Positions 2,443 through 22,304 of a stretch of DNA of 23,258 nt are shown piece after piece. The notes under the pieces were generated by a model. That model worked only from the letters and a program-made list of their open reading frames with translations, made no database searches and was not told the origin of the DNA. The stretch's first letter is position 1. Each line of letters starts with the position of its first letter. Position numbers and translations under genes: made by a program. The stretch covers positions 1 to 23,258 of IMG/VR virus record IMGVR_UViG_3300045258_000176; one strand, 5' to 3'. The stretch is from a virus.

Positions 2443-5400
2443 CAGCCGGTGATCGCATAGAGGGTGTTGGGGTCCTTGGTGACGATGGCGTCGTACTGGA
2501 CCTGGGTGCCGGTCCACATCAGCCACGCCGTCGCCAGGGTCGAGCCGAGCCCGAGATTCTGCATCGCTACTGCAGCGGACACAGCGGTCGGCTTGGCGAT
2601 CGGCGTGGTGCCGTAGAACCCTGCCGTGTACCCGGTGTGAGCGAGTGACCCCTTGATCCCCAGTGGCCCGCCGAATGACGCTGATCCGTTGAGCGTCCAC
2701 ACCTTGCCGTAGATGTCCTTGTAGGACGGTGTCGGGATCGAGGGGTCGTAGACACAGACCTCGGTGCCGCCGACAACGCCGGCTGCACCGATGCCGGAAC
2801 GCACCGACAGGTTCGAGGCGCGCCCGGCGAACCGCTGCTGCGTACCGTTGGTGATGCCCGACAGAGTGACCGCAACGCCGGTGGCGGCCCGTGTGACAGC
2901 CCCGGCAGTGGTGATGGTGGTACCCAGCTGGGTCCAGGTGGTGCCGTCGGGAGATGTCCAGAACCGCACGTCGTTGCCGCTCGCACCGTTGTCGACGTCA
3001 TGGGTGAACGCCACCCACAACCAGTCACCGTCGTTGACGACCACAGAGGCGGTCGACGTCTTGCTGGCGGTGGCGGTGCCATCGACCGAGTAGGTGAGCG
3101 TCAGGGCACCAACCGTGCTGAGGCTGAACGACCAGTTCCGCAGGTTGCCGGTCGGCATGTACTGCGAGACGATGGTCTGGGTGGCCGCCGGCGTCCAGTC
3201 AGCAGCGGCGACCCGGGCCACGACACAAAGGTCACCGGTGATGGCTGGCGAGGTAGCGGCACTGATGCCGACGTAGTCGTTGGTGACACCGGAGAAGGAC
3301 ACCCAGGTGGGGCCGGTGGACAGGCCGCCGGCCGTGAGGGCTGTGCCCTGGTTGAGGTCAGGCAGCCCGGCGTTGCCGACCATCACCAGGCGAGTGATGT
3401 TCTGGATCCCAAGGACACCGGCGCCGAAGCGGGAGTTGCCGGTGACGACGACATCCTCGATCGTGGCGCCGCCGGCGGGCTGGTCGACGGACAGCAGGTA
3501 GTTCAGCGCACTGGGGGAGGTGTTGCCACTGATGGTGATCGCCTTGGCGATACCGGAGGTCGGGATGATCCGCACACCGTTGCCGTTGATCGAGCACCCG
3601 CTGATACAGATGCCGAAGGTGCCGGTGAAGTCAGTGCCAGTGTTCTCGATGACGATCTGGTCGATGTTGTTGGAGTACATCGTCACACCGGTGATATTGG
3701 CGTTCTGGCAGTCCTTCATGTAGATGCCGTAGCGGGTGCCGGACGACTGCAGGCTGGCGCTGTCGGAGAACCCACCGACCATCGAGAAGTACCCGTTGCG
3801 GTTCAGGTAGATGTTGGCGATCCCTGATCCCTGGGCGCGGGCGTTGACCAGCTGCCAGGACGCAGTCGAGTCGGAGTACAGGCCGTAGTCGCGCCCGGCG
3901 GTCTGGGTGTGGATCATCCAGTTATCACTGCAGCCGGTGGATCGCACACCGATGCGGCCCGATCCGATGTAGCACCGCTCGATGTAGGTGGCGGCCGAGC
4001 TGGCGAGCAGGTCGACGCCGACATCGAAGGAGAGGATGTAACAGTCAGCGATGATCTGGTCAATGACCTTGTCGATCGAGATGCCGACAGACGTGGTCGC
4101 CGTGCCCAGGGTGCCGTTGTACGTGAGCCTGATGCCTTCGATGTGCCCACGGCAGTTGTTGATCTGCGTCGCCGGGGCGATGCGGATGCAGACGCCTTCA
4201 CCGGTGTAGCGGATGTTGGTGCCAGTGATCGATGTTGTGTACGGGTTGTTGCCGACTCCCTGCCACACCGTGTACGGGGACTTGTTGATTGTCGCTGCCA
4301 CCACGTAGCGGCCAGCCGGGAAGTAGAGAACCCCGCCTGTGGCGATAGCGTTGTCGGCGGCCTGGATCGCAGCGGTGTCGTCAGTGGTGCCGTCACCCTT
4401 GGCGCCGTAGTCCTTGACGTTGATCGAGCCGTTCGTCGTCCCGGGTGGGCCCTGAGCGCTTTCCAGCAGAGACGTTCCGAGACCGAGAGCTTCAAGAGCG
4501 GTCTTCGGCGATACCCCCGTCGGCCGGAGAGCCGGAGCGGTCCCGAAGAACCCCAGCTTGGCGCCACCGTGGGACACACCGCCATCGCCGGCGTAGCTGA
4601 TGTCCTCGACGTTGATCCGACCGTCGTTGGTGGCCTGCGTGACCAGGACCTGAGCCGACGTGGTGATGGCGCCGGCCATGCGCCCGGAGATGCGCACGTC
4701 GCTGATGTGCTCGTTCGAAGAGATCCCGAGGTGCACGAACTCAGCGGCCGAAGCGTACGGGCTGTGGATCGTGATCCGCGACGACGGTGTGCCCGGAGCC
4801 ACGGTGCCGCGCATCCTGAAGGCAGAGTTGTTGATGTTGTAGAACTTGTCGCCATCAACGACGATGTCGGTCGTCGTCCCGAGACCACCGGTCACGCTGT
4901 GCGGGGAGATGTAGATGCCGTTCTTGCCGGCCAGCTGGCTGGAGCCGTCCCACACGTTGTCGACGAACGTGGCCGACGTGTTGTAGTTGCCCTGGAACAA
5001 GGCGCCGTGGCCGGTGAACCCCATGAAGTGGTTGTCGGCGAAGTACGCCCGCACCAACGGCGCCGAGCAGTAGATGCCGTCGTCAGCCGACGTGGACCCG
5101 GGCTTGCCGATCCGCCGGAACGTGGCGCCGATCACGGTCAAGTCGGTGCCGCCGGGGCCGTTGCCGCCGTTCCAGGTGATGAAGTCGTCACCGACGTTCA
5201 GACCTCGCCCGTAGTTGGGAGCATGCGAGCCGATCTCGGAGCACTCGAAGTAGCCACCGAGGACGGAGATCTTGCGCCCCCGGAGCGAGAGACCATCGTT
5301 ACCGCCCATCGACTGACAGTCATTGAAGATGACGCTCTCGCACCCGGCGTGGGTGCCCATCGAACCGGTGTAGCTCTCGATCGAGATGAACCCGTTGACC

Positions 5401-10076: not shown

Positions 10077-10487
10077 TCACATCTGGGACTCGGCGAGCTG
10101 ATCGACCAGGAGGCCGCGCTCGTGGAGGTAGCGGTAGATGTCGGCGGGCACCCGATAGCGCCTGTTCTTCTTCAACTCGATCGGGCGCTCGGTGCCGCCG
10201 TAGTAGACGGGCCCGATGTCGGTGTGCACACGGACGATGTGCGTATCGGCTTCCGGGTCGAGGATCTCGACACCGAGGTCGACGATCGCATCAACCGTCT
10301 CGACGTTGCGCAGTACGTGGTCGCGGTGGAGCGACGCTGTCGTGGTCAGCACTTCACCGTGCTCCAGGTCATCGAAGGAGATGTCGTCATCGGCGCCGGG
10401 GTCGTAGTCGTCGACCAGGTGCGGATCGATCGGCGCCTCCACCTCGCCGACTTCGGTGATCGGGACCGGGGGCTTGGGATTGGCCAT
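10077..10487 (-). CDS. Putative head-associated protein, 136 aa
   Basis: ATG at 10487 is preceded by AAGGA, and the TGA at 10077 lies 13 bases before the next start. The first half is very acidic (VDDYDPGADDDISFDDLEHG). The second half is a compact basic-aromatic domain with IRVHTDIGPVYYGGTERPIE-like strands (here IVRVHTDIGPVYYGG) and the helix ADIYRYLHERGLLVDQL. It is the first gene after the capsid gene and its hairpin. By position it may be a head-completion, adaptor or decoration protein. No family is recognised, so this is positional inference only. Confidence 0.7.
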   Translation of the reverse strand: MANPKPPVPITEVGEVEAPIDPHLVDDYDPGADDDISFDDLEHGEVLTTTASLHRDHVLRNVETVDAIVDLGVEILDPEADTHIVRVHTDIGPVYYGGTERPIELKKNRRYRVPADIYRYLHERGLLVDQLAESQM

Positions 10488-10550
10488 GAAGTGTCCTTGT
10501 GGTCGGTGTGTACGTAGGCGAACACCACGGTAGTCCGCCCCCCGTCAGTG

Positions 10551-14362: not shown

Positions 14363-14420
14363 GCAGGCGGAGCCTAGTCCTGGACCTTTCCGCTACGTGA
14401 GACACGCACCGGAGGTGTGC

Positions 14421-16464: not shown

Positions 16465-17256
16465 ATGACACCGGCAGAGATGACCATGGACGAGTGCGGG
16501 GAGCTGCTGCGATACGTCCGTGGGGCGGAGTTCTCAGACGAAGCCCGCAGCAAGCTGTACCGGTTCCTGCACGAGCGGGGCTGGTTGCCACCGGAAGAGC
16601 GGGCAGCGGCTCTGGCCGTCGCGCAACGTCGTTGGGATGCTCGATCGAAGTACGCCAAGATGGGAAGCCGGGCGTACTGCGACCTGTGCGGTGAGCGCTC
16701 CATCGGCGTCCGAAGGAGTGGAGGAAGCTCCTGCCGAGCGCACTGGGACCTGGAGCAGACAACTCCGGTGTTCGACGCAGCGACCGGGTTCCCGCTATCG
16801 TCATCAACGGTGAGCCGAGAATTGAACGACGAACAGATCAAGGCGAAGCATCGTGCCCAGTTCGCTCCCAAGTACTGCGTGTACTGCGGAGCGACCGCTA
16901 CCTGCCTCGCCAAGGGAGGATTCTGGGCCTGCGACGAACACAGGACGGAGCCCAAGCCGGTCGAGCGCATCCTACGCCCCCACTTCATGTGGACCTGGAA
17001 GAGCGGTCACCGCTGCGAGGTCTGTGACCGGCCAGCTACCGGCATCCATCAGCGCAACGGCAAGGACGTCGGCTACTTCTGCCAGAAGCACTTCCCTGTC
17101 GGGGTACCGACCTACAGCAGCGGTCCTGTCTGCCAGGACTGCGGAGAAGAGGCCACCGTGCTCGATCGCGCCGGCGTGTGGCGCTGCGACGCTCATCGTC
17201 TCGTCACCCAGTCGAACATTCCACCGAGCACGTTGCCGGAGACGACTGCCTCGTAG
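16465..17256 (+). CDS. Four-zinc-knuckle protein on the opposite strand, 263 aa
   Basis: This plus-strand gene interrupts the minus-strand late region. Residues 1-60 are an Arg/Glu-rich helical N-terminus. Four modules of type CxxC-X14-CxxH follow: C72/C75/C90/H93, C138/C141/C156/H159, C184/C187/C206/H209 (spacer 18) and C223/C226/C241/H244. The pattern strongly implies four zinc-binding sites. Such knuckles bind nucleic acid or protein, but I do not recognise the family. Its ATG sits 29 bases from the divergent start at 16435, with only a weak GGGG ribosome-binding site, so a leaderless or downstream start (ATG at 16480, the sixth codon) is possible. The 3' end overlaps the convergent gene by 64 bases. 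The isolated opposite orientation suggests an independently expressed 'moron'-type gene. Confidence 0.88.
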   Translation: MTPAEMTMDECGELLRYVRGAEFSDEARSKLYRFLHERGWLPPEERAAALAVAQRRWDARSKYAKMGSRAYCDLCGERSIGVRRSGGSSCRAHWDLEQTTPVFDAATGFPLSSSTVSRELNDEQIKAKHRAQFAPKYCVYCGATATCLAKGGFWACDEHRTEPKPVERILRPHFMWTWKSGHRCEVCDRPATGIHQRNGKDVGYFCQKHFPVGVPTYSSGPVCQDCGEEATVLDRAGVWRCDAHRLVTQSNIPPSTLPETTAS

Positions 17257-17938: not shown

Positions 17939-18703
17939 TCATGCTCCTCTACTGCGGCCTCGGCCGCCGAATCTGTAACTGGGCACCGTCATTGATCCAC
18001 CGACCTTGCCGCCGAGCACCCGGGCGAGGACCTGGTTCATCATGGATGAGGACTGCTCACGCTGGGCGATGTCGCCGATGCGGTCATTGACGATGCCGCT
18101 ATGAGCACTGGCGGCCGGCGAAGCGGTCCCCGGGAAGGGACTGGCGGGGCCGACGGGCTTCTTGAAGTCCACGATCACCTTGTTCCGCTCGTAGAAGTCC
18201 TGAGGGGTGGGAGGGAAGGTCGAGGACCGCTCGCGCCCGCTGCTGCCGGGGCGAGGCGGCGGGATCACCAGCCCGCCACCGCCGGGGAACCACTTCGCCG
18301 CCTCAGCTCTGCCCTCCGGGGTACGCGTGTCGATCTCGCTGGGGGCGGCGCCCGCCTGTTGGGCGATCTCGTTGGGATCATCGCCGTACTCGGCGCGGTT
18401 CCACTCCTTGCGCTGGATGGTGGTGTCCCGCTGCTCCTTGACCCGATTGTTCACCGCACCGAGAGCGGCGGTGAAGAGGCCGCGCTGGTTCATCGCCGCC
18501 ATGGCGAGGCCGGCGTGCTCGGAGGTACCGGGCGTCATCGCGTTCTGGATGGCGCGGTTGACGTTGGCCGCTGGCATCCCGGGAGCAGCTGGCGGCCGGG
18601 TCCCCCACGGGATCTCGTTGAACCCTCGGGCGAACCCGCGCCCGTACACCGGGGGTGTGTACGTGCTGTGACGCGGATACGCACTGCTCGGGTTGTACGG
18701 CAT
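17939..18703 (-). CDS. Unrecognised Pro/Gly-rich protein, 254 aa
   Basis: ATG 18703 opens the gene 10 bases after the previous stop, with only a weak ribosome-binding site (GAAG). The N-terminus (MPYNPSSAYPRHSTYTPPVY) is Tyr/Pro-rich. Residues about 50-115 are helical (NRAIQNAMTPGTSEHAGLA, then NRVKEQRDTTIQRKEWNRA). Further on are a Gly/Pro-rich linker (FPGGGGLVIPPPRPG), a short helical segment (PQDFYERNKVIVDFKKPVG) and a basic C-terminus, YRFGGRGRSRGA. This linear layout of disordered and helical pieces is typical of internal virion proteins or connectors, but no family is recognised. Confidence 0.75.
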   Translation of the reverse strand: MPYNPSSAYPRHSTYTPPVYGRGFARGFNEIPWGTRPPAAPGMPAANVNRAIQNAMTPGTSEHAGLAMAAMNQRGLFTAALGAVNNRVKEQRDTTIQRKEWNRAEYGDDPNEIAQQAGAAPSEIDTRTPEGRAEAAKWFPGGGGLVIPPPRPGSSGRERSSTFPPTPQDFYERNKVIVDFKKPVGPASPFPGTASPAASAHSGIVNDRIGDIAQREQSSSMMNQVLARVLGGKVGGSMTVPSYRFGGRGRSRGA

Positions 18704-18713
18704 CGTTGTACTT

Positions 18714-19118
18714 CTAGTCGCGCACGATCGTCGGCGACGGCCGGTTCATCCGGTGCGTCAACGGGTTCACGACCATCTCGTAGGCCGGCGGGCCCTGGCC
18801 GGCGCCGGCGCCCGCCACGAAGTCACTGAGCATGCCGGGAGCCTCGATCCAGGCGGCAGAGCCGATGTGGGCCCGCTCCTTCATCGTCTCGTCAGCGTGC
18901 TTGTACAGCATCTCGCTGTTGTTGTGGTTGTGCCGCGTCGGCGCACTGGTGGTGTCCATGTAGGCACCTCGGGCGAAGTCCGACGGCACGTCGGTGTCGG
19001 TGGCGACACCCTCCTCGAACCGCAGCGGGCCACGCTCGCCGGGCCGCGACGGCGCCATCATGCGGTCGAAGCGCTGCGGGAACCGCTCCGGGTACGGGTT
19101 CTGCGGTGCAATGGTCAT
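18714..19118 (-). CDS. Unrecognised protein near the terminase, 134 aa
   Basis: ATG 19118 is chosen because AAGGAG lies six bases upstream. The frame is open upstream to an ATG at 19211, inside the palindrome discussed below, which lacks a ribosome-binding site. The translation begins MTIAPQNPYPERFPQRFDRM. The C-terminal half has KERAHIGSAAWIEAPGMLSD (about residues 81-100) and ends NPLTHRMNRPSPTIVRD. I recall similar 'ER..IGSA.W.EAP..L..F' segments in small proteins encoded near actinophage terminase and portal genes, though their function is unknown to me. Because it is the first minus-strand gene after the regulatory region, its promoter probably also serves the downstream structural genes. 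Confidence 0.75.
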   Translation of the reverse strand: MTIAPQNPYPERFPQRFDRMMAPSRPGERGPLRFEEGVATDTDVPSDFARGAYMDTTSAPTRHNHNNSEMLYKHADETMKERAHIGSAAWIEAPGMLSDFVAGAGAGQGPPAYEMVVNPLTHRMNRPSPTIVRD

Positions 19119-19124
19119 GTACGG

Positions 19125-19130
19125 CTCCTT
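19125..19130 (-). promoter_or_regulatory. Ribosome-binding site selecting ATG 19118
   Basis: AAGGAG lies six bases before ATG 19118. It is the main reason to prefer this start over ATG 19211. Confidence 0.6.
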
Positions 19131-19193
19131 GACCTGGGCTGGATGCCAAGAAGCGTAGTCCTGGGCCTTCAGCGGCCGCAGACGCGGGTGTTG

Positions 19194-19220
19194 TTCATAG
19201 TTGACGTACATCGACGTCAA
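19194..19220 (-). promoter_or_regulatory. Possible promoter toward the structural genes
   Basis: On the minus strand, TTGACG (19220-19215) is followed after 15 bases by TATGAA (19199-19194). The -35 is one half of the palindrome at 19201-19220. The short spacer makes this a weak prediction, but a promoter is needed here because the upstream hairpin at 20643-20683 would isolate these genes from the terminase transcript. Confidence 0.35.
19201..19220. promoter_or_regulatory. Operator-like palindrome TTGACGT-N6-ACGTCAA
   Basis: The site has two perfect 7-bp inverted half-sites separated by six bases. It is in the 176-base divergent gap, directly upstream of the helix-turn-helix genes, and each half-site can serve as a TTGACG -35 for one direction. 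This is the typical arrangement for an autoregulated divergent operator bound by a dimeric HTH protein. The binder is inferred, with the adjacent 282-residue protein as first candidate. Confidence 0.6.
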
Positions 19221-19232
19221 CGGTGGTACTCT
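19201..19232 (+). promoter_or_regulatory. Candidate promoter of the HTH cassette
   Basis: TTGACG (19201-19206) and TACTCT (19227-19232), with a TGG extended -10 at 19224-19226, face the regulatory genes. The 20-base spacer is long, so the extended -10 may matter more than the -35. The start site is predicted near 19239. Confidence 0.45.
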
Positions 19233-19235
19233 CGG

Positions 19236-19269
19236 GATCCCCCGCCACCCGGCAAGACAGCGGGGGATC
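19236..19269 (+). promoter_or_regulatory. Perfect 10-bp leader stem-loop before the HTH cassette
   Basis: Arms GATCCCCCGC (19236-19245) and GCGGGGGATC (19260-19269) pair perfectly around a 14-base loop. The element ends eight bases before the AAGGAG ribosome-binding site (19278-19283) of the first HTH gene. It might act as an attenuator, an RNA-stability element or a second protein-binding site. If transcription starts at 19239 the RNA would lack the first three stem bases, leaving about seven pairs. Confidence 0.6.
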
Positions 19270-19294
19270 ATCAACCGAAGGAGACCAAGGCTAC

Positions 19295-20143
19295 ATGCCC
19301 TCAACCATCAACATCCCGCGCTCGATCGCGGCCGCACAGGCGAAGCTCACCGAACTCGGTGAGATCTCCACGGCGACGGAGTGGCACCGAGCCGCCATCG
19401 TCGCCGCCTACGTCCAACCTGCCACTCATGGTGGGCGGCCGGACCGAGCAAGTTCGGATCTGAACTTGCTCACCGCCGCATCCTTCGCGGCACTCGGCAT
19501 CGTCGGCTTGTCAAGCACCGGCACCGTGCTGATCTACGCCAAGGCGTGGCTCGACCGCTTCGATCGACCTAAGCCCGGCGGCAAGATCACACTGCCAGAC
19601 GATCCGTGGCCACCGACTCGCCCCGAGTCGCTCGGCAGCCGAGTCTCCACCGATCCCGAACGTGCCGTAGCGCAGGTCATCGAGAAGCACGGCCTCAACG
19701 CCATCATCACTGCTGTCGTCGAACAAGCCCCCGAAGCCGTCGCCAAGGCCGTCGCCAACGACGATGAAGCCGACGTGGCCGTGAGCCAGGCCCGCCTCAC
19801 CCGCAACATCAACCGACCTGGCGCCGCCGAGATGCGCGACCGCAACGACGCTCGCGAGAAGCGGATGGACGACGCCATCGCCGACTCCACCACCCAACTG
19901 GAGCGCACCGGGCTCGCCGAGCACGAGGGCAACATCCACCTGCGACAGGCAGCGATGCACCTCGCCAAAGCGGCGGCCGAGTTCGACCGCAACCCGGTCC
20001 TCAGTGATGAGCAGCAGGGGCGCTGCGATGAGGCCATGACCCACATCGAGCACTACGTCCGCCTGCTCCACGGGGACGGTGAGTGGACCGGCAACGACGA
20101 TGACTTCCTGCGCAGCCTCGGCATCGAGGGAGTGGCGTCATGA
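19295..20143 (+). CDS. Putative helix-turn-helix regulator, 282 aa
   Basis: ATG 19295 is chosen; AAGGAG lies 11 bases upstream, and the longer open frame would run through the leader stem-loop. Residues 59-88 (TAASFAALGIVGLSSTGTVL followed by YAKAWLDRF) read as a helix-turn-helix with the turn at GIVGLSS. Residues 100-110 are a Pro-rich linker and residues 120-260 are helical and charged, with an Ala-rich segment (LRQAAMHLAKAAAEFDRN), probably for oligomerisation. The stop overlaps the next gene's start as ATGA (20140-20143), so the two are translated together. Layout resembles phage regulators or partition-like DNA-binding proteins; its binding site may be the palindrome upstream. Role in regulation is inferred. 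Confidence 0.82.
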   Translation: MPSTINIPRSIAAAQAKLTELGEISTATEWHRAAIVAAYVQPATHGGRPDRASSDLNLLTAASFAALGIVGLSSTGTVLIYAKAWLDRFDRPKPGGKITLPDDPWPPTRPESLGSRVSTDPERAVAQVIEKHGLNAIITAVVEQAPEAVAKAVANDDEADVAVSQARLTRNINRPGAAEMRDRNDAREKRMDDAIADSTTQLERTGLAEHEGNIHLRQAAMHLAKAAAEFDRNPVLSDEQQGRCDEAMTHIEHYVRLLHGDGEWTGNDDDFLRSLGIEGVAS

Positions 20144-20634
20144 GCTACTGGGCACAGCAGGTCGACGATGCCATCGACGCATTGCTGGTGAAGGACCCGA
20201 AGATGGTGCAGTTCACTCGCACTGACATTTCCAAGCAGCTACAGATCCCGAGAGCCCAAGCCAGCCAGGCCTTAAGCCTGCACCGGCGGTATCAACAGCG
20301 CAGTGGTACCAAGCACATCGTCGTGGGGCGCGGAAGCGGACGAGCAGCGATCTGGCTGCTGCTCAGCGGCAAGGGAGCGACCAACCGGGCGCTGACGATG
20401 GGCCACGCCCAGCACGTCGCCAACGACCTCGCCCGCCGTGCCAAGTCGGACATCATCCATGAGCTGGAGCCGGCGATGGTGGCCCACCCGATCATCCAGG
20501 CTGTGATGGCGGGGATGACGATGAACATCGAGCAGTCGGTGCTCACGGCCGCTCGCACCATCGAGGCGATGACGGCGGTATGGGAGCAGCAGGCGCACCA
20601 GAAGGCCGACCTGCGAGGCGTGGTCGCCGTCTGA
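20140..20634 (+). CDS. Putative winged-HTH protein, 164 aa
   Basis: The gene is translationally coupled to the preceding HTH gene through ATGA and ends at TGA 20634. Residues 25-52 (FTRTDISKQLQIPRAQASQA followed by LSLHRRYQ) form a clear helix-turn-helix, and residues 58-77 (TKHIVVGRGSGRAAIWLLLS) read as a beta wing. The C-terminal half is helical (HAQHVANDLARRAKSDIIHE), compatible with dimerisation. Codon positions are strongly biased in this frame, and composition is protein-like, unlike the antisense terminase extension over the same bases. It is probably the partner or second regulator of the 282-residue protein. A 15-bp hairpin follows 8 bases after the stop. The antisense relation to the terminase reading frame is discussed separately. 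Confidence 0.82.
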   Translation: MSYWAQQVDDAIDALLVKDPKMVQFTRTDISKQLQIPRAQASQALSLHRRYQQRSGTKHIVVGRGSGRAAIWLLLSGKGATNRALTMGHAQHVANDLARRAKSDIIHELEPAMVAHPIIQAVMAGMTMNIEQSVLTAARTIEAMTAVWEQQAHQKADLRGVVAV

Positions 20635-22304
20635 TCACGGGTGCCGCTAGCTCCTCCGAGAGAGATGAGGAGGAGCGAGCGGCGAGCCCGGCGGCCGTAC
20701 AACGGCTGTGTGCTCACCTCGGCCGTCTCGATCACATCGTCAACGGTCATGAAGCATGCGCACGCCAAGCTATCGGGGTAGTCATCAAAGGCGTCGCGGA
20801 CGTCGGGCGCCGCCGCCAACAGGTAGTTCCCCTGGAACTTGATCTCCAGGTCGGTCATCTGCTGTGTGAAGCGCTTGTAGCTGCGCAGACGTCGGGTCTT
20901 CGCCGAGGCCGGGAAGATGATCGCCTGGCGCTCGATCAGCGTCTTGAGGTGCTTCCACCGCTCGGACTGGTTCTTGCTGTCGCTGGTCAGCCCGCGCACC
21001 TCGACGTGGGGCATCAGCAACTGCAGGCGTTCAGCGACGTTGCTGCCCATGCCCTGAGCGTCAACACCGATGCGCAGGACGTTGTAGCCCTGCAGGAACC
21101 TCATGATCTCGTAGTACTGGCGCTCCCACGGCTTGTTCGTCAACTCCATCCAGTTGAGGATGCGATGCTCAAAGAAGCCGAAGCTGTCAGGGCGGGCCCA
21201 ATCGACCCACACGACCGTCACAACGGTGCTGTCGTGGGTGCGGGCCGGATCGACGCCAACTACAACAGGACTGTCCGGGTGCCAGAAGGTCGGCTGGATC
21301 CCGAACTGGACGTCGCCCAGGTTCATCAGCACATCCTCGGTGACGAACATGCCCTCTTCGAGGATCCACTTGATGTTGTAGCTCATCTGGAAGAAGTCGG
21401 AGTCCTCGCCGAAGCGGGCCTTCTCACGAGCGATGTACTTCTTGTAGTCAGCGTTGTAGCGGCAGACGTACTTGTAGTTGAACTCGAAGTGGTTCCGCCG
21501 GCCGCCGCGAGTCTGGCGCCGCTTGTTCGAGGTGCAGGTCTTCTGGAACAGGCTCTTCACCCGGTTCGGGGTGCCGGTCATCACCCTGGAGCCGTTGTAG
21601 AACGCCAACGTCGGTGCGATCTTGCGGTTGATCACTTCCTCGTCGATGTCCTGGGCCTCGTCCATCAGCACGAAGTGGTAGCTCTTGGACTCGATCTTGG
21701 CCCGGGCGTTGGCGGTCTGCATGCGACACAGCGAGCCGCTCTTGCGCAGCGAAACGACCTTGGCCTTGCCGCCGGTGCGCGTCGTGCGCTCGTCGATCTC
21801 GGGGTCGAGGAACAGCTTGCGGGCCTTCTCCGACGTCAGCCAGTCGTGGACACGTCCCCACACCGTCTCTGCCTGGCCCTCAGTGGGAGCGAACACACCG
21901 ACCCAGAACCCGTCGACGAACTTCTTCAGCAGGTCCGGGTAGGCCTTGGCCAGGCGCGGCAGCAGCACCATCAGGCCGGCGATGACGATCGACAACGTCT
22001 CTGACTTTCCTGACTGCCGCGACTGCAGCACGGTGATCTCCTCGGAGTCACCGATGATGATCGACTCGACGATGCGGTAGGCCACCTCCCGCTGGTACGG
22101 GAACAGCGTGCGCCCGGTCAGGTCCTCGCTGAACACGATGATCTTGAGGACCATCTCGTGCACGAACTGGGCGTCGTCCTCGTCCAGCTCGATGTAGTCG
22201 GCCTCGGCGTCCTCGGCCTCGGGGAACTCCTCATCGAAGGTGATCTTCGGCGCCGGCGGCTCCTCATCGTCCAGCTCGATGATCTCGATCGTGGGCGTCG
22301 ACAT
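20292..22304 (-). CDS. terL: Terminase large subunit; frame extended beyond the normal C-terminus
   Basis: The terminase packages DNA into the procapsid using an ATPase and a nuclease. Visible motifs are Walker A SRQSGKSE (95-102), Walker B FVLMDEAQ (211-218), TGTPNR (243-248) and a RNase H-like nuclease with D352 (GVDPARTHDST), D415 (GVDAQGMG) and D508/D511 (FDDYPDSLA). ATG 22304 has AGGA upstream. Recognisable protein ends near residue 540 (STQPLYGRRA), at about 20685. The open frame then continues 130 residues to TGA 20292; this tail is Trp/Cys/Met-rich and lies antisense to the 164-residue HTH gene for 343 bases. It looks like shadow sequence. A lost stop or a single-base frameshift is possible, so the true end may be near 20650-20685. 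Confidence 0.9.
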   Translation of the reverse strand: MSTPTIEIIELDDEEPPAPKITFDEEFPEAEDAEADYIELDEDDAQFVHEMVLKIIVFSEDLTGRTLFPYQREVAYRIVESIIIGDSEEITVLQSRQSGKSETLSIVIAGLMVLLPRLAKAYPDLLKKFVDGFWVGVFAPTEGQAETVWGRVHDWLTSEKARKLFLDPEIDERTTRTGGKAKVVSLRKSGSLCRMQTANARAKIESKSYHFVLMDEAQDIDEEVINRKIAPTLAFYNGSRVMTGTPNRVKSLFQKTCTSNKRRQTRGGRRNHFEFNYKYVCRYNADYKKYIAREKARFGEDSDFFQMSYNIKWILEEGMFVTEDVLMNLGDVQFGIQPTFWHPDSPVVVGVDPARTHDSTVVTVVWVDWARPDSFGFFEHRILNWMELTNKPWERQYYEIMRFLQGYNVLRIGVDAQGMGSNVAERLQLLMPHVEVRGLTSDSKNQSERWKHLKTLIERQAIIFPASAKTRRLRSYKRFTQQMTDLEIKFQGNYLLAAAPDVRDAFDDYPDSLACACFMTVDDVIETAEVSTQPLYGRRARRSLLLISLGGASGTRDQTATTPRRSAFWCACCSHTAVIASMVRAAVSTDCSMFIVIPAITAWMIGWATIAGSSSWMMSDLARRARSLATCWAWPIVSARLVAPLPLSSSQIAARPLPRPTTMCLVPLRC
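20643..20683. terminator. Bidirectional hairpin between HTH cassette and terminase
   Basis: Arms at 20643-20657 and 20669-20683 pair at 14 of 15 positions (one A-G mismatch at 20649/20677) around an 11-base loop. It begins nine bases after the plus-strand stop and directly adjoins the end of the recognisable terminase sequence. No U-tract follows on either side, so it would act as a GC-rich, actinobacterial-type terminator for both converging transcripts. Confidence 0.7.

Follow-up and report, generated by a model that had tools for sequence, protein, structure and literature searches.

A plus-strand gene pair between terminase and 'down'

The window analyzed here is a 23,258-base uncultured virus record (IMGVR_UViG_3300045258_000176), a fragment whose minus strand carries the terminase, a conserved small gene ('down'), and portal, scaffold-like, major capsid, and tail-type genes. 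The terminase large subunit (20292–22304, minus strand) was recognized by Pfam and PHROG terminase matches, with homology that stops near 20679. The first gene downstream of it, 'down' (18714–19118, minus strand), belongs to a family widespread in uncultured phages, with 587 relatives among the first 599 pattern hits listed. Among cultured phages, the BRock group of Streptomyces phages comes closest to the window phage (terminase identity 45–46%), and sequence comparison indicates that it is Borockvirus-related. BRock has been described as a virulent myovirus lacking predicted lysogeny genes (PMC7453282), and no integrase was seen in the window fragment. Borockvirus-type phages (BRock, Alone3, LuckySocke, GiJojo, and pSt2308) share the gene order terminase, 'down', portal, scaffold, and capsid with the window; however, they carry no cassette, and only 46 nt separate their terminase from the next annotated gene.

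At this position in the window lie two plus-strand genes: g1 (19295–20143, 282 aa), with an N-terminal domain of ~110 residues and a variable helical C-terminus, and g2 (20140–20634, 164 aa), with an HTH-like N-terminus in a weak model and a helical C-terminus. The stop of g1 and the start of g2 overlap in ATGA (20140–20143), as the preliminary description had reported, and a putative ribosome-binding site of g1, AAGGAG, was read from the sequence at 19278–19283 (plus strand). Scored by codon log-odds against the phage's own genes, g1 and g2 reached +0.30 and +0.26 bits per codon, compared with 0.46 for 'down' and 0.67 for terminase, and the competing antisense frames that were scored came out negative. 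Both genes look like genuine coding sequence. Their codon fit is lower than that of 'down' and terminase but their GC is similar, and in base composition the cassette does not stand out clearly as foreign to the phage.

Queries with g1 and g2 returned no significant match in phages, plasmids, viral and genome contigs, PDB, Pfam, PHROGs, NCBIfam, or PADLOC, and a search of the whole records of 30 relatives found nothing. Neither protein matched a ParB or initiator family or, in Pfam, NCBIfam, and PADLOC, a known toxin or antitoxin family; hits to DUF6192, DUF7437, and CpcE were weak and were judged to be due to chance. The preliminary description had called both genes HTH genes. No HTH domain family was significant for either of them in Pfam, NCBIfam, or PHROG, and this part of the claim now has to be put more cautiously: g2 gave an HTH-like model (helices at residues 3–18, 27–34, and 38–55; pLDDT ~60), whose Foldseek matches were mostly HTH proteins but non-significant (E > 0.8), and g1 contains a conserved HTH-looking motif recognized by eye. 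The structure models of both proteins, made from single sequences, were poor, and fold matches were not taken as proof. Taking the g2 model and the conserved g1 motif together, the two proteins most likely bind DNA.

Three sequence elements flank the genes. A palindrome at 19200–19221 (GTTGACGT-ACATCG-ACGTCAAC) consists of perfect 8-bp arms around an N6 spacer; the preliminary description had placed it in the divergent region at 19201–19220. It is followed on the plus strand by an extended -10-like box, TGGTACTCT (19224–19232), and by a 5′ leader stem-loop with a perfect 10-bp stem (19236–19269), also reported previously. The box conforms to TGnTAnnnT, a form found just twice on the plus strand of the window and never on the minus strand, and relatives conserve a box of the same type in the gap that follows terminase; a search with the sigma-70 consensus gave no hit for the cassette promoter. 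Relative to a predicted transcript start near 19239, the palindrome spans about −39 to −18, over the -35 region of the promoter predicted for the cassette itself, and is a candidate operator. It occurs once in the window and in no other locus examined, neither in phage relatives nor in other carriers of the cassette genes, and no iterated sites lie near the window copy of the cassette. In 2000 dinucleotide-preserving shuffles of the 176-bp intergenic region, one such structure appeared in 3% and two in 0.05% (1/2000); a chance origin of palindrome and leader stem-loop together is unlikely. The positions of these elements suit self-regulation, with the palindrome most likely acting in repression of the predicted cassette promoter.

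After the last stop codon, a hairpin at 20643–20683 (14 of 15 bp paired, one mismatch; z = −3.5 on both strands) closes the unit. The preliminary description, which had noted this hairpin, also had it stop transcripts arriving from the terminase side. Such a role is doubtful: the hairpin has a T-run on neither strand and lies within the extended terminase frame, which runs through it to 20292, and minus-strand termination there would leave the terminase message without an in-frame stop codon, which would speak against a stop for terminase transcripts. The promoter and terminator assignments made here are sequence matches, and an Rfam search of 18600–21000 was empty.

The extension of the terminase frame was examined by comparison with the nearest relative, L006, in which terminase stops at ...YGRRASR*. 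The window lacks that stop codon, and the frame stays open to 20292, so that its last ~132 codons (20292–20690) run antisense through the hairpin and g2. Since these codons scored −0.35 bits per codon, a genuine C-terminal tail was rejected. Stops are present nearby in another frame, and a small indel or an assembly error is possible.

The terminase/'down' boundary in relatives

Across 78 relatives, which have 36 distinct gap sequences, the spacing from terminase to 'down' is 24–132 nt and includes no gene; L037 was left out of these loci for a negative gap value judged to be an artefact. Homology of the window to its nearest relatives breaks at about 19180–19187 and at 20678. On this comparison, the cassette is an insertion that separates two genes lying next to each other in relatives. 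At the same boundary, L006 (3968–4683) carries a 153-aa gene flanked by hairpins, L007 (1698–2190) a 138-aa gene with a weak resemblance to 2H phosphoesterases, and L012 (1–1909) genes of 204 and 403 aa. These are the three closest relatives, and other genes at the same spot mark it as an insertion site with varied cargo in the closest clade. The preliminary description had suggested seeing whether relatives keep the cassette at the same position; neither the 78 loci nor these three do.

The gap also contains a -10-like box of the head-gene operon, GGACTACGCT (19152–19161, minus strand), which is kept in relatives lacking the cassette. The window holds only three matches to a box of this type, all on the minus strand: this one, one before the portal gene (14371–14380), and one before the gene at 10077–10487 (10527–10536). 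A promoter-like box was present in 31 of the 36 distinct gaps. TGnTAnnnT occurred in 29 of 36, against 2.75 expected from mononucleotide shuffles, which preserve base composition only, and the relatives in this count are not independent of one another. Two GC-rich gaps have GAACTACGCT in its place, as do L006 and L037, and the L012 gap has GAACTACAGT; in GC-rich members the box takes the form RACTACnnT. No -35 box was conserved across the gaps. As the box is present in relatives with neither cassette nor palindrome, the predicted head-gene promoter is ancestral and should not need the cassette, and the sequences indicate that its box is older than the insertion. A conserved head-gene promoter-like box is thereby uncovered in a large, almost uncharacterised phage group. 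In L037, L049, and L069, and before the window portal gene, the box lies very near the start codon, and transcripts could be leaderless.

Recurrence of the unit in unrelated phages

Homologues of g1 were first recovered with a degenerate DNA pattern that encodes ATEWxRAA, and then with an alignment. The pattern identified homologues in four viral contigs and the alignment ten loci, partly on the same contigs; scans of the collections used short peptide patterns, which miss distant relatives. The loci (L158/L164, L096/L165, L166, L167, L168, L169–L172, and L173) belong to unrelated uncultured phages. Their N-terminal domains share 38–62% identity with that of the window, with 18 positions invariant among the eight longer sequences, and the pattern ATEW.RAA.V.A ... 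F...GI.GL.S..TV..Y...W is common to them and the window.

In L164, L165, L166, L167, and L169 (L166 and L167 being near-identical), g1 is followed by a small gene with an HTH-like start. The partners are 142–167 aa long, the L165 copy being cut off, and the ATGA overlap of the pair is found in L164 and L165. The window and all three of the other loci that were folded, L164, L166, and L169, have a strong hairpin after g2; the L165 sequence ends before this point. That unrelated phages hold a comparable gene pair, likewise closed by a hairpin, strengthens the earlier description of the cassette as self-contained. The window g2 occupies the same slot as the other g2 proteins, and homology with them was not demonstrable (hhalign E 0.44). 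A shared palindrome was sought in the other carriers of the unit and none was found.

The pair lies on the strand opposite to its neighbours in L164, L165, and L169, near replication initiator-, helicase-, and primase-like genes, some of which were named by eye, and in L166/L167 the unit precedes a helicase-like gene. L164 and L165 have the same 103-aa gene with the pair on different sides of it, which fits movement as a unit. By way of the g1 homologue in L135, we also found Rhodococcus phage Finch gp167 (38%, E 8e-9), which has the g1-type N-terminal domain; unlike the window pair, it is a 120-aa hypothetical protein within a codirectional run of small genes.

On the minus strand of L164, the product of a gene at 3640–5226 resembles, by eye, a Ro60/TROVE protein. 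Beside it, the segment 5230–5796 (minus strand) contains tandem weak Y-RNA-like matches (Deinococcus_Y_RNA, E 0.012–0.27, below the gathering score).

Possible functions of the cassette

The preliminary description proposed a switch of late transcription, in which g1 and g2 bind the palindrome and control a divergent head-gene promoter that is made dependent on them by a hairpin blocking terminase transcripts. The palindrome does lie ~65 bp upstream of the predicted start of 'down' and the head operon, within the range where activators can act, and unrelated carriers likewise hold the unit on the strand opposite to, and beside, an operon. However, relatives without the cassette have the ancestral head promoter box, and the palindrome is absent from all other loci examined. 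For these reasons a late switch appears unlikely, and among the readings considered here we rank it lowest. Against it also stand the hairpin, which has no T-run and is read through by the terminase frame, and the portal gene and the gene at 10077–10487, each of which is preceded by a box of this type. Absence of the palindrome from relatives that keep the genes had been named beforehand as an observation that would refute the switch; the other carriers of the cassette genes, among the loci examined, do lack it. A local effect of the cassette on the head promoter is conceivable.

Other readings of what the pair acts on are chiefly replication control and the exclusion of rivals. As a replication-control or partition unit, g1–g2 would belong with the replication genes of donor phages and bind origin- or centromere-like sites, the window holding a stray copy. 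We give this a low probability: the proximity of the unit to initiator, helicase, and primase-like genes in L164, L165, and L169, and to the helicase-like gene in L166/L167, is consistent with it, but the proteins match no ParB or initiator family, the window copy has no iterated sites nearby, and it sits among virion genes. A toxin–antitoxin-like or superinfection-exclusion pair, with overlapping genes and a self-repressed promoter, would shield the infected cell from rivals. The ATGA-overlap operon with a palindrome over the -35 region has this layout and occupies an insertion site of variable cargo; nevertheless, PADLOC, Pfam, and NCBIfam gave no match, both proteins exceed the size of a typical antitoxin/toxin pair, and BRock, the nearest cultured relative, was described without predicted lysogeny genes (PMC7453282), leaving this reading doubtful, with a rather slim chance. 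It is also possible, at a similarly low probability to replication control, that g1–g2 represent a new family of DNA-binding regulators which act in pairs, move together, and control the adjoining operon, namely replication operons in most carriers and the head operon here. Should such control of adjacent operons be real, the pair would amount to a mobile regulator able to rewire gene expression in phages.

We consider it probable that the locus holds a recently acquired, moron-like, self-regulated two-gene cassette of an undescribed family, encoding a DNA-binding pair and inserted backwards at the terminase/head-gene boundary. The cassette would have entered on the opposite strand, bringing with it a predicted promoter, the leader stem-loop, the two genes coupled by ATGA, and the hairpin at the end; binding of g1/g2 to the palindrome over the -35 region would repress the cassette promoter. 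The sequences show the insertion, the layout of the unit, the recurrence of g1 with a small partner in other phages, and the ancestral state of the head-promoter box. That the promoter is active, that the proteins bind DNA and regulate their own genes, and that they affect the host or competing phages in any way is what we infer. We take the definition of a moron from lambdoid phages (PMC1524935). Like the lambdoid elements, the cassette is short and splits two genes that relatives keep side by side; morons have their own promoter and terminator, differ from the phage in base composition, and are expressed from the prophage, and the cassette has promoter-like and terminator-like signals, its hairpin being without a T-run. 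It differs from them in comprising two coupled genes of an undescribed family whose composition is not clearly foreign.

The divergent repressor modules of temperate phages are CI/Cro-type regions. The cassette resembles these in lying on the opposite strand and in having a candidate operator where two predicted promoters diverge; in contrast to them, it has no repressor family match and sits in a block of virion genes. It is a recurrent two-gene unit without a database family, for which the proposed autoregulation makes a sharp prediction, binding to a single 22-bp site.

A second plus-strand gene lies within the late block of the window (16465–17256). Its 263-aa product contains several CxxC pairs and is zinc-ribbon-like, and its codon score is near zero. 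Family matches, and relatives beyond L012, were sought without result; the L012 homologue is 52% identical and lies on the same relative strand.
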